In this document: positions 13,641 to 22,925 of the stretch, piece by piece | Position numbering within the stretch: position 1 is the stretch's first letter | Layout: each line of letters begins with the position of its first letter | NCBI RefSeq assembly: GCF_000828085.3 | Contig: NZ_JXCA02000001.1 | Location: forward strand, 844,742-908,741 | Direction of reading: 5' to 3' | From: Scytonema tolypothrichoides VB-61278 | GTDB taxonomy: Bacteria; Cyanobacteriota; Cyanobacteriia; Cyanobacteriales; Nostocaceae | Length of the DNA: 64,000 nucleotides | The notes under the pieces: model-generated | The model's input: only the letters and a program-made list of their open reading frames with translations | Told to the model about the DNA's origin: nothing | Databases searched by the model: none | Made by a program: the position numbers and the translations under genes

Positions 13641-14249
13641 ATGTCCAATATTATCGGCGTAAAGGAGGCAGCAGAACTGCTTGGGGTCAGTACTAAGACA
13701 ATCAGACGTTGGGAGGCGGAAGGAAAAATCAAGTCTGTGCGTACAGAGGGAGGTCACAGGCGATTTGAAATCTCACAATTGCTTGGGACAAAAACAGATG
13801 CCAGCTTAACAATTGGTTATGCGCGTGTCAGTAGTTATGAGCAAAAGCAAGACCTAGAACGTCAAGTAATTGTCTTAGAGACGTACTGCGCCAAACATGG
13901 TTGGTGTTTTGAAATCATTCAAGATTTAGGCAGTGGCTTAAATTACCGTAAAAAAGGACTGATACGGTTAATCAAGTTGATATGTTCATACCAAGTAGAA
14001 AGATTGGTTGTCACTCATAAAGATAGACTATTACGCTTTGGCTCAGAGCTAATTTTTACAATATGTGAAATATTTGGAGTTGAAGTTATCGTGATTAATC
14101 GTACAGAAGACTCAACGTTTGAGGAAGATTTAGCACAAGATGTGTTAGAAATAATAACAGTATTTAGTGCGCGATTATATGGGTCAAGAAGTCATAAAAA
14201 TAAACAAATAGTCAAACAGCTTAAAGAAGTAGCAAATAATTTAAAGTAG
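13641..14249 (+). CDS. tnpA: IS607-family serine recombinase TnpA
   Basis: A 202-residue transposase with an N-terminal MerR-type HTH (GVKEAAELLGVSTKTIRRWE, residues 5-24) followed by a small serine-recombinase catalytic domain. The nucleophile serine is in IGYARVSSYEQKQDLERQ, and the catalytic arginines lie around THKDRLLRFG. The stop codon is separated by one base from the tnpB start, giving a two-gene operon. Length and motifs are intact. Confidence 0.92.
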   Translation: MSNIIGVKEAAELLGVSTKTIRRWEAEGKIKSVRTEGGHRRFEISQLLGTKTDASLTIGYARVSSYEQKQDLERQVIVLETYCAKHGWCFEIIQDLGSGLNYRKKGLIRLIKLICSYQVERLVVTHKDRLLRFGSELIFTICEIFGVEVIVINRTEDSTFEEDLAQDVLEIITVFSARLYGSRSHKNKQIVKQLKEVANNLK

Positions 14250-14250
14250 T

Positions 14251-15390
14251 GTGATGTTGCTCGGATTCAAGACAGAACTCAAGCTGAACAATTATCAACG
14301 TACCCAACTAGCAAAACACGTAGGTACTGCAAGACACGCATATAATTGGGGATTAGGCTTGTGTTTAGGAATTCTTGACCACAATCGACTTCATCCAGAT
14401 AAAAAGATTAAATTTCCAACAGCGATTGACTTACATAAATGGTTAGTAGCCATAGTCAAGCCGGAGAATTCATGGTATTACGAAGTCAGTAAATGTGCGC
14501 CACAGTATGCATTGAAAGCATTGAGAGAAGGTTTTGCAAAATGGTTTAGTAAAAAGGGAGGTAGACCGAAATTTAAGAAAAAAGGTCGTGATGATTCTTT
14601 TACGTTAGATGGAACAATTAAGGTCTTAGAACAAAAGAAAATTCAATTACCAGTAATTGGTATATTGCAGACTTATGAAAAACTACCAATTGGTCATTGC
14701 CCAAAAAATATTACTATTAGTCGTCAAGCTGATAGATGGTTTATTTCTTGGCGGATAGAAGTATCAACTTATGTGAAAGAAAAAAACATGGATGTAGTTG
14801 GAGTTGATTTAGGAGTTAAATCTCTAGCCACTCTTTCTACAGGAGAAGTTGTTAATGGAAGCAAAAGTTATAGAAAGTATCGCCAAAAACTAGCGAGACT
14901 ACAACGTCGATTGAGTCGGAAAGTCAAGCATTCAAGTAATTGGTACTCTGCGGTAATAGATGTTGCCAAACTACATCGAAAAATTGCCAACATTCGTGGA
15001 GATACGTTGCATAAATTAACTACCTATTTAAGCAAGAACCACGCAACAGTAGTGATAGAAGATTTAAACGTGTCCGGAATGTTGGCAAATCATAAATTAG
15101 CAGCTTCGGTTGCGGATATGGGTTTTTATGAATTCCGACGCCAACTTGAATACAAATGCAAGCTCAATGGCAGTAGTTTAATCATCGCAGACAGGTTTTT
15201 TGCATCAAGTAAAACCTGTTCTAATTGCGGTCATATTAAACAAGAACTCAGTTTATCTGAACGAGTTTTCGTTTGTGAACAATGTTCCTGTCAGATAGAC
15301 CGAGATTTGAACGCAGCAATTAATCTTAGTAGGTTAAGCTCTAACCGAATTCACGCCTGTGAACAGAGTGCCGCCGACGGTTCTGGATGA
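14251..15390 (+). CDS. tnpB: TnpB RNA-guided nuclease of the IS607-type element
   Basis: A 379-residue TnpB. The RuvC triad is present: Asp186 in VGVDLGVKSLA, Glu270 in VVIEDLNVSGM, and Asp350 in CQIDRDLNAAINL. The zinc ribbon is Cys323/Cys326 and Cys342/Cys345. TnpB proteins are omega-RNA-guided DNA nucleases related to Cas12 that help the element persist. Translation may start at GTG 14251 or the next codon, ATG. No frameshift or missing key residue is seen, so it is probably functional. Confidence 0.93.
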   Translation: MMLLGFKTELKLNNYQRTQLAKHVGTARHAYNWGLGLCLGILDHNRLHPDKKIKFPTAIDLHKWLVAIVKPENSWYYEVSKCAPQYALKALREGFAKWFSKKGGRPKFKKKGRDDSFTLDGTIKVLEQKKIQLPVIGILQTYEKLPIGHCPKNITISRQADRWFISWRIEVSTYVKEKNMDVVGVDLGVKSLATLSTGEVVNGSKSYRKYRQKLARLQRRLSRKVKHSSNWYSAVIDVAKLHRKIANIRGDTLHKLTTYLSKNHATVVIEDLNVSGMLANHKLAASVADMGFYEFRRQLEYKCKLNGSSLIIADRFFASSKTCSNCGHIKQELSLSERVFVCEQCSCQIDRDLNAAINLSRLSSNRIHACEQSAADGSG

Positions 15391-17846: not shown

Positions 17847-18644
17847 TTACACAATAAAGCAAAGTGCGCGTATCACCTCAAACCAATTATCTGTCTCCAA
17901 AAGAACTGATTGTTCGCCTTGTAGTTTTGCTCCCGGATAAAAGGAATTTTCGTAAGCATCGGGTGGATGGTTGTATTCCACTTCAAGCTTAAAATTCTCA
18001 GATAAGGGTTTCACCCCAATTTGATCTTGATTCTGCAATGCCCTTTCTACACCTGCTTGAATTTGCTTAACAGCTTCCTCAGGATGAATCGTCCATACAG
18101 ACTCACCAATTCCCTTCTTGGTAGCCACTGTTTCGATGTTTGTGTCATAAACTTTTACAGCTTCACACACAGCAGAATCTCCAGACACAAAGACGACAGG
18201 AACTTTTTCATACGCTGCAGTCATTGCTACTAAATGGAACTCGGCTATGGGTTGATCATTGAGCAGAATACAGTTTAATTCTTCACTCAAAGTATGCGCC
18301 AGAGGATTCTTTCCAGATCCAGATCGTGAGTGGTAGCCAATCAAAACTAATGCACTAAAGCTGCTATTTAACTCTTGAACCATGCTGTAAGGATGACCAC
18401 TCCATCCTCTAATAAGTTGTGCTGGTAATGGTAATTGATAGGGATCAAGATTTCTACCTGTGTCATGGGCATCCTTAACAATAATCTCAGTTGCACCAGC
18501 AGCTGTTGCTCCTTCACATGCTGCAATGACTTCACGAGTCATCTGCTCTTGAAAGATATCGTATTCTTGTTTACCCAACGTCGCTTCATCCCAGTGACTG
18601 ATTCCAGCTATTCCTTCGATGTCTGCGCTGATATAGATTTTCAT
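17847..18644 (-). CDS. M55-family D-aminopeptidase (DppA-like)
   Basis: A 265-residue zinc peptidase. Metal-ligand motifs typical of DppA are intact: SADIEG (Asp8, Glu10), KDAHDTG, GYHSRSG and LSEELN. DppA enzymes cut N-terminal D-amino acids such as D-Ala from short peptides. It has no signal peptide, so it acts in the cytoplasm. It is downstream of, and codirectional with, the Pls-like peptide synthetase but separated by about 290 bp that includes the 160-bp hairpin repeat. A role on the NRPS product is possible but unproven. Confidence 0.88.
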   Translation of the reverse strand: MKIYISADIEGIAGISHWDEATLGKQEYDIFQEQMTREVIAACEGATAAGATEIIVKDAHDTGRNLDPYQLPLPAQLIRGWSGHPYSMVQELNSSFSALVLIGYHSRSGSGKNPLAHTLSEELNCILLNDQPIAEFHLVAMTAAYEKVPVVFVSGDSAVCEAVKVYDTNIETVATKKGIGESVWTIHPEEAVKQIQAGVERALQNQDQIGVKPLSENFKLEVEYNHPPDAYENSFYPGAKLQGEQSVLLETDNWFEVIRALCFIV

Positions 18645-18932: not shown

Positions 18933-21900
18933 CTACTCAGCAATCCGGGCAGGAGAACCCACCCAAGAGGAACTAGCAGGTAAGGATTCGCCTTTCATCA
19001 GCATGGACAGGTTGCCTAGGCTGGAATCGGGTTCCATGACTGTGTCGTAGAGAACGATCGCACCACTGCCTACCGAACAGCGATCGCCAATAGTCACAGT
19101 TGATATCTTCATCACACGGTCTTCAAACAGGTGTGTTTGCAAACCACAATTACTATTCAGTGCCACATTATTACCAACCTCAATTGTGTCAAATTCGGTG
19201 ATATCGGTGGTATCAGTATAAACTTGTCTGCCAATTTTGCAGCCCATTAAGCGAAGATACCAGTTAATAAAGGGAGTGCCTCGCAGCATATCCACCAGTA
19301 AGGGAACTGCCAGGGTTTCATGGATACAGGTAACGAGTTCCGAGCGAAACACGAAGTTCGACCACAGAGGACGTTCTGTCGATTTATACCGACCGATGAT
19401 CAGCCATTTAGCAATGATGGTGATTGCCGTGGCTACTAGTCCGAAACCGAGATACAGGAACGGTAACATGAGTATCAATACCGATTCATCCCAATTTTCG
19501 TTCAGCATAATCATTGTATCAATAAGTACTGAACTTAGGATGACGATGCAGGTAAGAGAGAACAGCACGCGAACTGTCTCAAAGCCGATGCGTTGCACCA
19601 CCAGACTTAAGGTTGGCTTGTAAGTCGATTCCACTGAAAAACCCTGGACAACTTGCCGTTGTGGTAGGTTAATCGCTGGGGAACCGAACCAGGAGGTATC
19701 GGGTTTAGCAACTAAGGTTTTATCGGCGGGAGGAACAGACATACAGCCAATGAGGGTATCATCGCCAATACTCACGCCTGCTGGGAGTAAGGCACTGTTA
19801 CCAATGAAGGCACGCTTACCAATTCGTGTCGATTCCAAATACATTCGTCCACGTTCAACTCTGGGTACACCCATAATCACACCATCTGCAATAAAACTTT
19901 CATCGTCGATTGTGACTAAATCGGGAACCACAGAGGATGGTGTAGAGATTTCTGTCCGCCATCCTAGCTTTGCTCCTAGCAGGCGATACCAAGGTAGCAG
20001 ATACAGTGTGGCGTAAAGCGGACGAATAATATCGAGGCTTAATGCCATCAGCTTATCAACGTACCACAATCTTACGTAATGATGACTGTCTAGACGACAT
20101 GATCCCGGTTTGACACGTCCAACGATTAACCACTTGAGTGCGGCAATTTGTAGTCCCATCAAGATGACAAACGATAAGGCAATTAAAGGTGAAAACAGCA
20201 GCCAATGTTGCTCATCACTGATGGAGTACATTTGCTCGACTCCAGGAAGAATTGGCAGAAGTTCCAAAATTGGTAGCGTTAGCAGTAAAATTGCCTGGAG
20301 AGTGCCAAAATAAATTCGTCGCAGTCGCGCAGGACGAGATACCATTTTGCTTTCGTTGATTCCGACTTTAGCAGCAGGAGAACCAGCCCAAACTTCCCTT
20401 GCTGGAATTTGTTGCAGCGGTGGCAGCATTGATAAATCTTCCAGACTGGCATTTTTTTCCATGATCGTGTTTGCGCTTAGTACAGCACTAGCACCGACAA
20501 AACAAGAATTGCCAATCTTAATCGAACCAATTTCCAGCCAACCCTGTTCTACCGTAGCATTTAGCAATCGTGCTTCGTAGCCAAGGCTACTATCTGCACC
20601 GATACTTACCAAGTCGGGAACATCGATATTGACCGAACTCAGGTAAACATTGGTTCCAATTTTAGCTCCCAACAGTCGGTAGTAGATGTTAAGCAAGGGA
20701 GTACCACTCAAGAAGTGATGTGGTGTAATCGATAGCAAGTTCTTGACAAACCACCAGCGCAAATAAAAACTCCCCCAAAGTGGATACTTTCCTGGTTTCA
20801 CCCGTCCCAAAAGTAACCATTTCGCAACAATCGAGAACCCAAGCATCAAGGGAATGATTCCTGCCAAAGCAGCTATGGACAAGAAAGCGGACTCAAAATT
20901 GCTGGCGTCGTTCTCCTGCGTCCAACTGTACGTCAGATAAGGTAGCAACCACTGTAAGGCAAAGCAAAATAGAATGACTATTAGTCCTAATGCCTGAACG
21001 GTTACGCCCCTCAGGTAGCGTCTGTTACTCGTATGATGGAAGGGGAGAGTGGCAGCTGGAAGGTTTGGTAAAGCTGTTGGTTGCGTCAGCCTAGCAGCTA
21101 ATCCAGCAATGGTAGGGCATTGATAGACATCAAGCATGGAGACGTGACTAAACTCAGGTTGGTCTCGCAATTGAGACACCAAGCTGGCAGCCAAAAGTGA
21201 GTGTCCTCCCAAGTCGAGGAAGAAGTTGTCGTTTATAGAAATTTGGGCGTGGGGAAAGAGGTTTTGCCAGATGTTGGCGATCGCCGACTCCTCTTTTGAT
21301 AAGCTAACAGGCAGCGCAAGCTGATCACTGTGATGCTGACGTTGCATCCTTTGGGTTGGTGCAGGTAGCTTTGATCGATCTGCCTTACCGTTGGGTAGTG
21401 TCGGAATCGTATCCAAAATTTCGATGAAAGCTGGCACCATGTAACTAGGTAAGCGGTGCCTTAATACCGTATGCAAACGATTTTTCAGTTCTTCAGAATC
21501 GGCAACAGGAACACGCAGTGTGATGTAGGCGACCAATTCCTGGACGTCTGTATTAATAGACACCAGCGAGACAATAGCGTTTTCAACATCTGGGGTTTCC
21601 AGCAAAACTGTCTCAATTTCTGTCAACTCAATGCGGTAACCCCTGATTTTGACTTGAGTGTCAATGCGTCCTAAATATTCAATCTCACCGTTGGGTGTGA
21701 CTCGTCCTAAATCACCCGTCCGATACAACCTTGCTTGAGGATCGTTCTGCTCAAACGGATCGCAGACAAACTTGGCGGCGGTTTGTTCCGGCAAGTTGAC
21801 ATAACCTTGTGCAACACCAATACCGCCAATGCAGATTTCCCCTGCTTCCCCGAAAGGAACTGGATGCAACTGCTCATCCAGAATATAGACGCTATAAGTG

Positions 21901-22925
21901 GGTAGGGGTTTACCGATTGTCACTGGCTGATCAGGAACTAGTTCTGTCCAGAGTGCAGTGACTGTTGTCTCAGTCGGTCCATAGGTGTTGAGCATCCGTC
22001 GGTCTGGTTGACTCCAGCGTTCTACCAGATATTGGGGACAGGCTTCACCGCCAACTATCAAAGTCCGCAGTGAAGGCACATCACGATCAATAGTTGCCAA
22101 CAGTGTGGGTACACAATACATCACCGTTATCGCGTGCTCAATGAGAAAATCGGTGAGTTCAGAACCAAGTCGTCGGTAATTGGTTGGACCAGCCACTAGC
22201 GTTGCACCGACGATAAAGGTAGGCCAAATTTCCTCAATCGAGAAATCAAAGGCAATAACCATACCTTGATAAACGCGATCGCCGCAAGTCACACCATAAA
22301 TTGGTGTGCAAACCGTGAGAAAATTACAGATGCTGGAATGATTGACTGCAACACCCTTGGGGCGACCTGTTGAGCCTGATGTGTAGATGATGTAGCAAAG
22401 TGCGTCAACAGAGTCCGCAATTGCAATACGGTTTGGTGGTTGAATGGCGATCGCTGCACCTACAGCATCAAGCAACAAGACTTCACAGCACACTCCGGCA
22501 GTTATGTCAACAAACTGACTGGTTGTGACCAACAGATTGAGGGAGGCATTTTCAGCAATGAAGGCAATCCTGTCTTGGGGGAAAGATGGATCAAGCGGCA
22601 CAAAGGCAGCGCCACACTTTAGTATCGCCAGTAGTGTCACATAAGTGTTAACCGAGCGTTCGAGCAAAATACCAACTCTGTTCCCTGAACTGATACCTCT
22701 ACGCAAAAGGTGATGAGCTAACTGATTCGCTCGTACGTCAAGTTCAGCGTAATTTAGACGTTCTATATCGCAGATGAGAGCAAGAGCATCGGGATCGGTA
22801 TCACATTGTCTTTCAAAAAAGTAGTGAAGACGTTGTGGCGGTATTTCTAGCTGATAAAATGGAGCATTTATAGAATCAATTGTTTTGGAATCGTGTTGCG
22901 TGTTACTACAATATTGATTTTTCAT
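18933..22925 (-). CDS. Pls/PosA-type non-ribosomal peptide synthetase (A-PCP-membrane/LbH x3)
   Basis: A 1330-residue single-module NRPS. Residues ~35-525 are an adenylation domain (IIYTSGSTGRPKGVAVNHSS, NTYGPTETT, LYRTGDLGR, catalytic Lys514 in LPNGKADRSKL). Residues ~545-612 are a carrier domain with the phosphopantetheine Ser576 in DLGGHSLLA. There is no condensation or thioesterase domain. Instead come three units, each a two-helix membrane segment (~641-706, 873-935, 1113-1178) followed by a hexapeptide-repeat left-handed-helix domain ending in W(A/F/V)GSPA. Six membrane helices and three C domains are the layout of epsilon-poly-lysine synthetase. The binding-pocket code read by eye is D-F-E-Y-I-G-T-V-T-K, close to Lys-activating codes. 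The membrane-bound homopolymer maker is an inference from architecture. Confidence 0.9.
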   Translation of the reverse strand: MKNQYCSNTQHDSKTIDSINAPFYQLEIPPQRLHYFFERQCDTDPDALALICDIERLNYAELDVRANQLAHHLLRRGISSGNRVGILLERSVNTYVTLLAILKCGAAFVPLDPSFPQDRIAFIAENASLNLLVTTSQFVDITAGVCCEVLLLDAVGAAIAIQPPNRIAIADSVDALCYIIYTSGSTGRPKGVAVNHSSICNFLTVCTPIYGVTCGDRVYQGMVIAFDFSIEEIWPTFIVGATLVAGPTNYRRLGSELTDFLIEHAITVMYCVPTLLATIDRDVPSLRTLIVGGEACPQYLVERWSQPDRRMLNTYGPTETTVTALWTELVPDQPVTIGKPLPTYSVYILDEQLHPVPFGEAGEICIGGIGVAQGYVNLPEQTAAKFVCDPFEQNDPQARLYRTGDLGRVTPNGEIEYLGRIDTQVKIRGYRIELTEIETVLLETPDVENAIVSLVSINTDVQELVAYITLRVPVADSEELKNRLHTVLRHRLPSYMVPAFIEILDTIPTLPNGKADRSKLPAPTQRMQRQHHSDQLALPVSLSKEESAIANIWQNLFPHAQISINDNFFLDLGGHSLLAASLVSQLRDQPEFSHVSMLDVYQCPTIAGLAARLTQPTALPNLPAATLPFHHTSNRRYLRGVTVQALGLIVILFCFALQWLLPYLTYSWTQENDASNFESAFLSIAALAGIIPLMLGFSIVAKWLLLGRVKPGKYPLWGSFYLRWWFVKNLLSITPHHFLSGTPLLNIYYRLLGAKIGTNVYLSSVNIDVPDLVSIGADSSLGYEARLLNATVEQGWLEIGSIKIGNSCFVGASAVLSANTIMEKNASLEDLSMLPPLQQIPAREVWAGSPAAKVGINESKMVSRPARLRRIYFGTLQAILLLTLPILELLPILPGVEQMYSISDEQHWLLFSPLIALSFVILMGLQIAALKWLIVGRVKPGSCRLDSHHYVRLWYVDKLMALSLDIIRPLYATLYLLPWYRLLGAKLGWRTEISTPSSVVPDLVTIDDESFIADGVIMGVPRVERGRMYLESTRIGKRAFIGNSALLPAGVSIGDDTLIGCMSVPPADKTLVAKPDTSWFGSPAINLPQRQVVQGFSVESTYKPTLSLVVQRIGFETVRVLFSLTCIVILSSVLIDTMIMLNENWDESVLILMLPFLYLGFGLVATAITIIAKWLIIGRYKSTERPLWSNFVFRSELVTCIHETLAVPLLVDMLRGTPFINWYLRLMGCKIGRQVYTDTTDITEFDTIEVGNNVALNSNCGLQTHLFEDRVMKISTVTIGDRCSVGSGAIVLYDTVMEPDSSLGNLSMLMKGESLPASSSWVGSPARIAE

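Follow-up and report, generated by a model that had tools for sequence, protein, structure and literature searches.

Peptide synthetases of the Pls/PosA family are single proteins that polymerise one cationic amino acid into products of antimicrobial type. In this family the second residue of the adenylation (A) domain pocket code has been assigned to the substrate: Ala goes with lysine, Met with ornithine and Phe with poly-diaminopropionic and poly-diaminobutyric acid (PDAP and PDAB) (PMC10522769). The exchange M218A in PosA raised lysine activation nearly 10-fold and position 2 is thus tied to chain length; the same report mentions cyanobacterial homologues with the poly-lysine residues, others with the PDAP residues, and a DLEDIG code (PMC10522769). 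It also relates that the PosA code, when analysed, had suggested the lysine domain of bacitracin, but that the assay gave ornithine. For poly-L-diaminobutyric acid the published gene arrangement is pls-dat-ask (pldA-dat-ask) (PMC8117764). Here we describe a gene of this family in a 64-kb stretch of DNA from Scytonema tolypothrichoides VB-61278 (hereafter the window, meaning the whole stretch). Sequence comparison identifies the gene as a chimera, and its product is probably a membrane-bound single-module synthetase making a cationic isopeptide homopolymer of diaminopropionic acid (Dap) or diaminobutyric acid (Dab), which the M55 peptidase encoded next to it would most likely hydrolyse.

A chimeric Pls/PosA-family synthetase gene

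The model TIGR02353 (Pls/PosA family non-ribosomal peptide synthetase, terminal domain) matched residues 643-1326 of the product with 672.6 bits (E 6.6e-202), far over its cut-off of 423.1, and the amino-acid adenylation model scored 434 bits. Pfam placed AMP-binding at residues 37-375, AMP-binding_C at 436-514, PP-binding at 549-613 and Hexapep at 1033-1064; the Pfam table held no condensation domain, and the A domain and the peptidyl carrier protein (PCP) domain are each present once. Six membrane helices in three pairs were found by hydropathy (637-667/677-708, 871-897/907-938 and 1112-1143/1146-1179), together with one extra hydrophobic segment (residues 138-163) within the A domain. By these matches the protein is a genuine Pls/PosA-family synthetase, and the architecture of epsilon-poly-lysine synthetase, which a preliminary description of the locus had recognized in it, was confirmed, as was the cyanobacterial host: its genome gave four photosystem reaction-centre matches, and among 14 controls only Synechococcus matched. 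The gene is under purifying selection, with dN/dS of 0.12 for the A domain and 0.16 for the terminal domain (TD) in comparison with the 92%-identical L047.

With the window protein as query, 12 of the 217 genomes of the bacterial family, from 7 of its 56 genera, gave a match at E <=1e-150; in an even draw over the phylum, 3 of 386 genomes passed the TIGR02353 cut-off. Six enzymes, designated type I (the window and L047-L051), combine an A domain with Phe at position 2 (Phe code) with the terminal domain of the window, and five, designated type II (L053-L057), combine a Phe-code A domain with another terminal domain. L052, from genome G440, has the window-type terminal domain but the lysine code DAESIGTVVK.

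The two halves of the window protein have different nearest relatives: compared with L053 the A domain is 77% and the terminal domain 40% identical, whereas compared with L052 the values are 53% and 79%. In a tree of A domains (43 rows) the window and the 21 other Phe-code rows included all formed a single clade (100/100). In the corresponding PCP-TD tree (43 rows) it grouped with L052 (100/100) inside a 16-row clade (100/99), whose nine remaining rows carry ornithine codes (six), DLED codes (two) and a DIES code (one). The other Phe-code terminal domains formed a separate 15-row clade (100/99), except for L138, which has a very long branch; most other lysine-code terminal domains had no firm placement.

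Approximately unbiased (AU) tests on 24 rows rejected both congruent placements: forcing the window-type A domains together with L052 cost 174.5 log-likelihood units (p-AU 7e-106) and forcing the window-type terminal domains together with L053, L054 and L056 cost 351.9 units (p-AU 4e-5), p-values that serve as guides, the groups having been named after the identities were seen. The window gene is thus, at the level of sequence, a chimera of a Phe-code A domain and a PCP-TD part of another lineage.

A second and finer exchange can be read from the third codon positions: a pocket cassette of about 300 residues was swapped within one genus. Over residues 181-480 (five 60-codon bins) the third-position identity to the window is 43-55% in the congeners L049 and L050, compared with 77-93% in the remaining bins, apart from a single bin at the edge that has 71% in L049 and 65% in L050. 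The exchange changes the code, to DFESIGTITK in L049 and to DFEGIGTITK in L050. Outside this pair the best row reached at most 71% for residues 211-340, so the donor of the cassette is not among the rows compared. The A domains of other synthetases in the window genome, where 29 matches exist and 7 of the 8 loci compared gave hits, were 35-41% identical to that of the window. Recombination has been described as a driver of A-domain diversity in non-ribosomal peptide synthetases (PMC8097286); the likeness lies in the recombination itself, the window gene differing in that it belongs to the Pls/PosA family, which lacks the condensation domain.

Pocket code and predicted substrate

Alignments of 12 and of 100 rows both gave the pocket residues of the window as D227, F228, E231, Y270, I290, G292, T314, V322, T323 and K514, that is, DFEYIGTVTK. 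The identical columns yielded DMEHNGTVSK for PosA, which matches the published code, and the ten residues picked by eye in the preliminary description were all correct. The 100 rows, which are not a census, represent 98 distinct genes (L046 is the window gene; L018 and L054 are one gene). They comprise the window, the hits in the family and in the phylum, five plasmid loci and, out of at least 595 genome loci, the best 80. Every one of the 100 rows has Asp as its first and Glu as its third pocket residue; at position 2 the commonest residue was Met (36 rows), followed by Phe (30), Ala (21), Leu (12) and Ile (one).

The pocket had previously been described as Lys-type, which the alignments do not support. 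The A domain of epsilon-poly-lysine synthase (PDB 7wew) reads DAESIGTVV in a HMMER alignment that covers the first nine positions, the tenth lying outside it, and the window differs at positions 2, 4 and 9. A lysine code for the window was rejected on this alignment together with the position-2 rule: the window has Phe (DFEYIG) and not the Ala of DAESIG-type codes. The frame D-x-E-x-I-G-x-V-x-K, earlier taken as the mark of lysine, is mostly present in other enzymes as well, those with ornithine codes having N for I and those of the Dab operons described below having L and S for I and G; being common to both groups, it signals a diamino acid rather than lysine.

Three actinobacterial loci (L059, L196 and L199) contain the synthetase gene followed by genes for a Dab transaminase and an aspartokinase, and all three have the code DFECLSAVTK, with Phe at position 2. 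Together with the published rule (PMC10522769), this indicates that Phe goes with a short diamino acid. The best reading of the window pocket is therefore a substrate of this kind, predicted to be Dap or Dab, two acids that DFEYIGTVTK does not separate. The three poly-Dab-type operons were found on replicons of the plasmid collection, from Streptomyces and Embleya. A separate DLED(L/I)G code group was seen in Proteobacteria (L104, L106, L110, L112, L115, L117, L119, L121, L122, L136 and L142).

Choosing between Dap and Dab for DFEY(I/L)G codes from Dat or Sbn neighbours was tried on 106 loci and abandoned. SbnB at 1e-8 had no match in these loci. Matches that spanned most of the Dab transaminase (Dat) were confined to L059, L196 and L199, with weak and distant matches (26%) in L112, L119 and L122, and L062, whose code is that of L059, showed just an 84-residue aspartokinase match. 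Adjacent SbnA-SbnB-like genes (Dap route; L159/L166) occur in G449, the DFEYIGTVTK synthetase of which is on another contig. Among the 11 actinobacterial Phe-code loci inspected outside the Dab operons, a BPL-N domain protein adjoins the synthetase in 7/11 and an HGSNAT-like membrane acyltransferase in 8/11 (L060, L198, L069, L079, L084, L100, L111 and L140); this recurrent operon perhaps acylates the product.

If the window synthetase activated lysine or ornithine instead, its product would be epsilon-poly-lysine or delta-poly-ornithine. These acids require no special supply genes, the window genome has no Dap/Dab supply gene over cut-off, and the terminal domain groups, as given above, with lysine-code L052 and with ornithine-, DLED- and DIES-code rows. 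Phe at position 2 should, however, block longer side chains, and the A domain falls in the Phe-code clade; we consider such a substrate unlikely. A cationic polymer in a cyanobacterium, as the preliminary description suggested, is plausible; it is the identification with lysine that lacks support.

Gene neighbourhoods of the window and its relatives

Four of the five type II synthetases (L150-L153, in G042, G483, G544 and G553; not L149) sit in clusters for ribosomally synthesized and post-translationally modified peptides (RiPPs). Their surroundings, of the proteusin/lanthipeptide kind, encode radical-SAM epimerases of the PoyD type, LanM (incomplete in two, where the locus ends) and several small proteins of one family. 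Of two such small proteins that were tested, one passed the cut-off as an NHLP-leader precursor and the second matched nitrile hydratase alpha. Two of the four clusters encode an ATP-grasp of MvdD type, and three a TPR protein with weak likeness to peptide arginase (34 bits, the cut-off being 350). The clusters resemble that of landornamide; the maturases named in the portion of PMC10028609 consulted include no Pls-like synthetase. At the type I locus of G442, Nif11-leader, LanM and YcaO genes lie approximately 13-19 kb upstream of the synthetase; the interval holds two genes that recur from the type II clusters (beta-lactamase-fold protein, cl6). The window showed no match to these RiPP-cluster genes, the window genome no match to PoyD, and G449, L075 and L081 no RiPP genes in the stretches examined.

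These neighbourhoods bear on the idea that what the module makes is no free homopolymer but an acceptor (a RiPP, a lipid or a cell-surface amine) to which one diamino acid or a few have been added. The type II clusters and the G442 copy speak for it; the window, its genome, G449, L075 and L081 speak against it, as do the characterised members named in PMC10522769, which make homopolymers, and we regard it as improbable. It would be just as long a shot to view the Phe-code Pls modules of this cyanobacterial family as exchangeable makers of cationic tails. A domains and pocket cassettes would then be shuffled between stand-alone, M55-policed loci and proteusin or lanthipeptide clusters, in which the synthetase would add an isopeptide tail of oligo-Dap/Dab to a ribosomal peptide that is epimerised and lanthionine-bridged. 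If true, this would combine ribosomal with homopolymer biosynthesis; the relatives embedded in RiPP clusters suggest a possible new class of hybrid products.

The homopolymer that we favour for the window enzyme has a candidate for its turnover in the M55 peptidase. The M55 gene lies downstream of the synthetase, on the same strand, in 6/6 type I loci (the window and L143-L147), with gaps of 52-288 bp. M55 was found in 7 of the 217 family genomes, namely the six type I carriers and G417, that is, in 1 of the 211 others. Kinship being uncorrected, the co-occurrence with the synthetase gave a Fisher p of 5e-11 over genomes and of 0.029 within the genus, where four genomes have both genes and three neither. 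No synthetase above threshold was present in G417; its M55 gene (L180:9777-10792) is located beside a 36-residue A-domain-like match on the opposite strand, possibly a synthetase remnant. Among the 106 loci searched for M55, only L143-L147 and L180 matched. The window M55 protein aligns with DppA of B. subtilis (PDB 1hi9; E 6.5e-28) over residues 1-261 of 265 and misses the DppA equivalog cut-off (146 vs 430 bits). It would most likely hydrolyse the polymer or its fragments, in turnover or self-protection.

A PddB-type racemase beside actinobacterial Phe-code loci was considered and not retained: one DapF-sized match pair, at any position in the genome or record, was obtained in 8 and none in 3 of 11 genomes or records (10 actinobacterial and one cyanobacterial). 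That the polymer consists of D-configured Dap or Dab, with the M55 D-aminopeptidase as its matched hydrolase, is very improbable: poly-D-Dab is known in Streptoalloteichus, and both the alignment with DppA and the NCBIfam name of DppA, D-aminopeptidase, fit, but the annotated window neighbours include no DapF/PddB-type racemase and the DppA cut-off is missed.

An IS607-type serine recombinase and TnpB element occupies window positions 13641-15390 (+), about 3.5 kb from the synthetase; in L145 no recombinase or TnpB ORFs were found between the corresponding neighbours. Neither the chimera nor the links to M55 and to RiPPs were found described in the open-licence literature, few searches having been aimed at them directly.

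Features of the synthetase locus, in window coordinates
Feature	Position	Strand	Details
M55 D-aminopeptidase (DppA-like)	17847..18644	(-)	same strand as synthetase, 288 bp downstream
Pls/PosA-family synthetase gene	18933..22925	(-)	1330 aa, ATG start, ORF intact; TIGR02353
Terminal (polymerising) domain, three helix pairs and hexapeptide-type repeats	18948..21008	(-)	residues 640-1326; TIGR02353, hydropathy, profile, tree
QTHLFEDR motif, third unit	19116..19139	(-)	residues 1263-1270; candidate active site
Carrier protein domain	21081..21308	(-)	residues 540-615; Ser576 in GGHSL
A/PCP junction, nearest relative changes from L053-type to L052-type	21276..21338	(-)	residues ~530-550; sliding identity
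Adenylation domain, Phe-code clade, code DFEYIGTVTK	21351..22835	(-)	residues 31-525; Pfam, alignments, tree
Pocket cassette, replaced in congeners L049 and L050	21486..22385	(-)	residues ~181-480; third-position identity

Proposed mechanism and comparison with known systems

By analogy with the characterised relatives, from which the substrate class, the polymerisation and the isopeptide linkage are taken, we propose that the A domain would activate Dap or Dab, that the activated acid would be loaded on Ser576 of the carrier domain, and that the C-terminal beta-helix/membrane domain would join the monomers iteratively via the side-chain amine into a cationic isopeptide homopolymer. The gene probably originated when a Phe-code A domain was fused to the PCP-polymerase part of a synthetase from the lineage of L052 and the ornithine-code enzymes.

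The membrane polymerase domain of poly-diamino-acid synthetases is described as having no solved structure (PMC10522769). A profile of 49 terminal domains matched solved hexapeptide proteins: gamma-carbonic anhydrases, LpxA and tetrahydrodipicolinate acetyltransferases. Among the best 60 of 115 matches the similarity covered units one (profile 112-260) and two (393-460) and the third was unmatched. The hexapeptide-repeat domain earlier assigned to each of the three units is accordingly shown for units one and two and presumed for the third. In that third unit Q1263, H1265 and E1268 of the QTHLFEDR motif, and the nearby K1273, are invariant in the 49 terminal-domain rows, which suggests H1265 and its surroundings as a candidate active site.

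Several observations weigh against a Dap or Dab polymer turned over by the M55 peptidase. SbnB (TIGR03944) and the Dab transaminase (TIGR00709) had no match over cut-off in the window genome, the best Dat-like protein of which is an ArgD; of the 12 family genomes that carry a synthetase, two had Dat over its cut-off and one SbnB. It is possible that the window genome uses a Dap/Dab route outside the coverage of these models; the PDAP producer has Dap genes that act on Ser and Orn and are unlinked to the synthetase (PMC4668381). The polymerase half stands apart from those of the Phe-code enzymes (AU p 4e-5) and clusters with ornithine-code enzymes and a single one of lysine code. The M55 linkage amounts to at most three gene neighbourhoods, since four type I loci belong to one genus and largely share their surroundings, and G442 and G543, with other neighbours, yet have an undecaprenyl-diphosphatase gene in common; a seventh locus with the window-type terminal domain (L052/L148, lysine code) had no M55 match. 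For the poly-L-diaminopropionate synthetase (PDAPs) of Streptomyces albulus PD-1 (PMC4668381), where supply genes are likewise unlinked, the comparison covered position 2, which is Phe as given in PMC10522769.

Set beside L052 and L053, the window enzyme would show whether its polymerase half is selective for the monomer or takes whatever the A domain loads, and on this selectivity depends how much freedom there is in building new cationic polymers.

Among the known systems, the poly-L-Dab operon (PMC8117764) and its look-alikes L059, L196 and L199 differ from the window in their code, in their Dab supply genes and in a terminal domain of another clade; they share Phe at position 2, and the L059 A domain falls in the window's clade. 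PosA, the delta-poly-L-ornithine synthetase of Acinetobacter baumannii (PMC10522769), carries Met at position 2, where the window has Phe, and H, N and S in place of Y, I and T at positions 4, 5 and 9, and its locus, unlike the window, has no M55 match; it shares the architecture, the family and the D/E anchors of the pocket, and its terminal domain lies in the same 16-row clade. Pls (PDB 7wew A domain) differs in having Ala, Ser and Val where the window has Phe, Tyr and Thr, and shares with it the family and the residues D, E, I, G, T and V at positions 1, 3 and 5-8.

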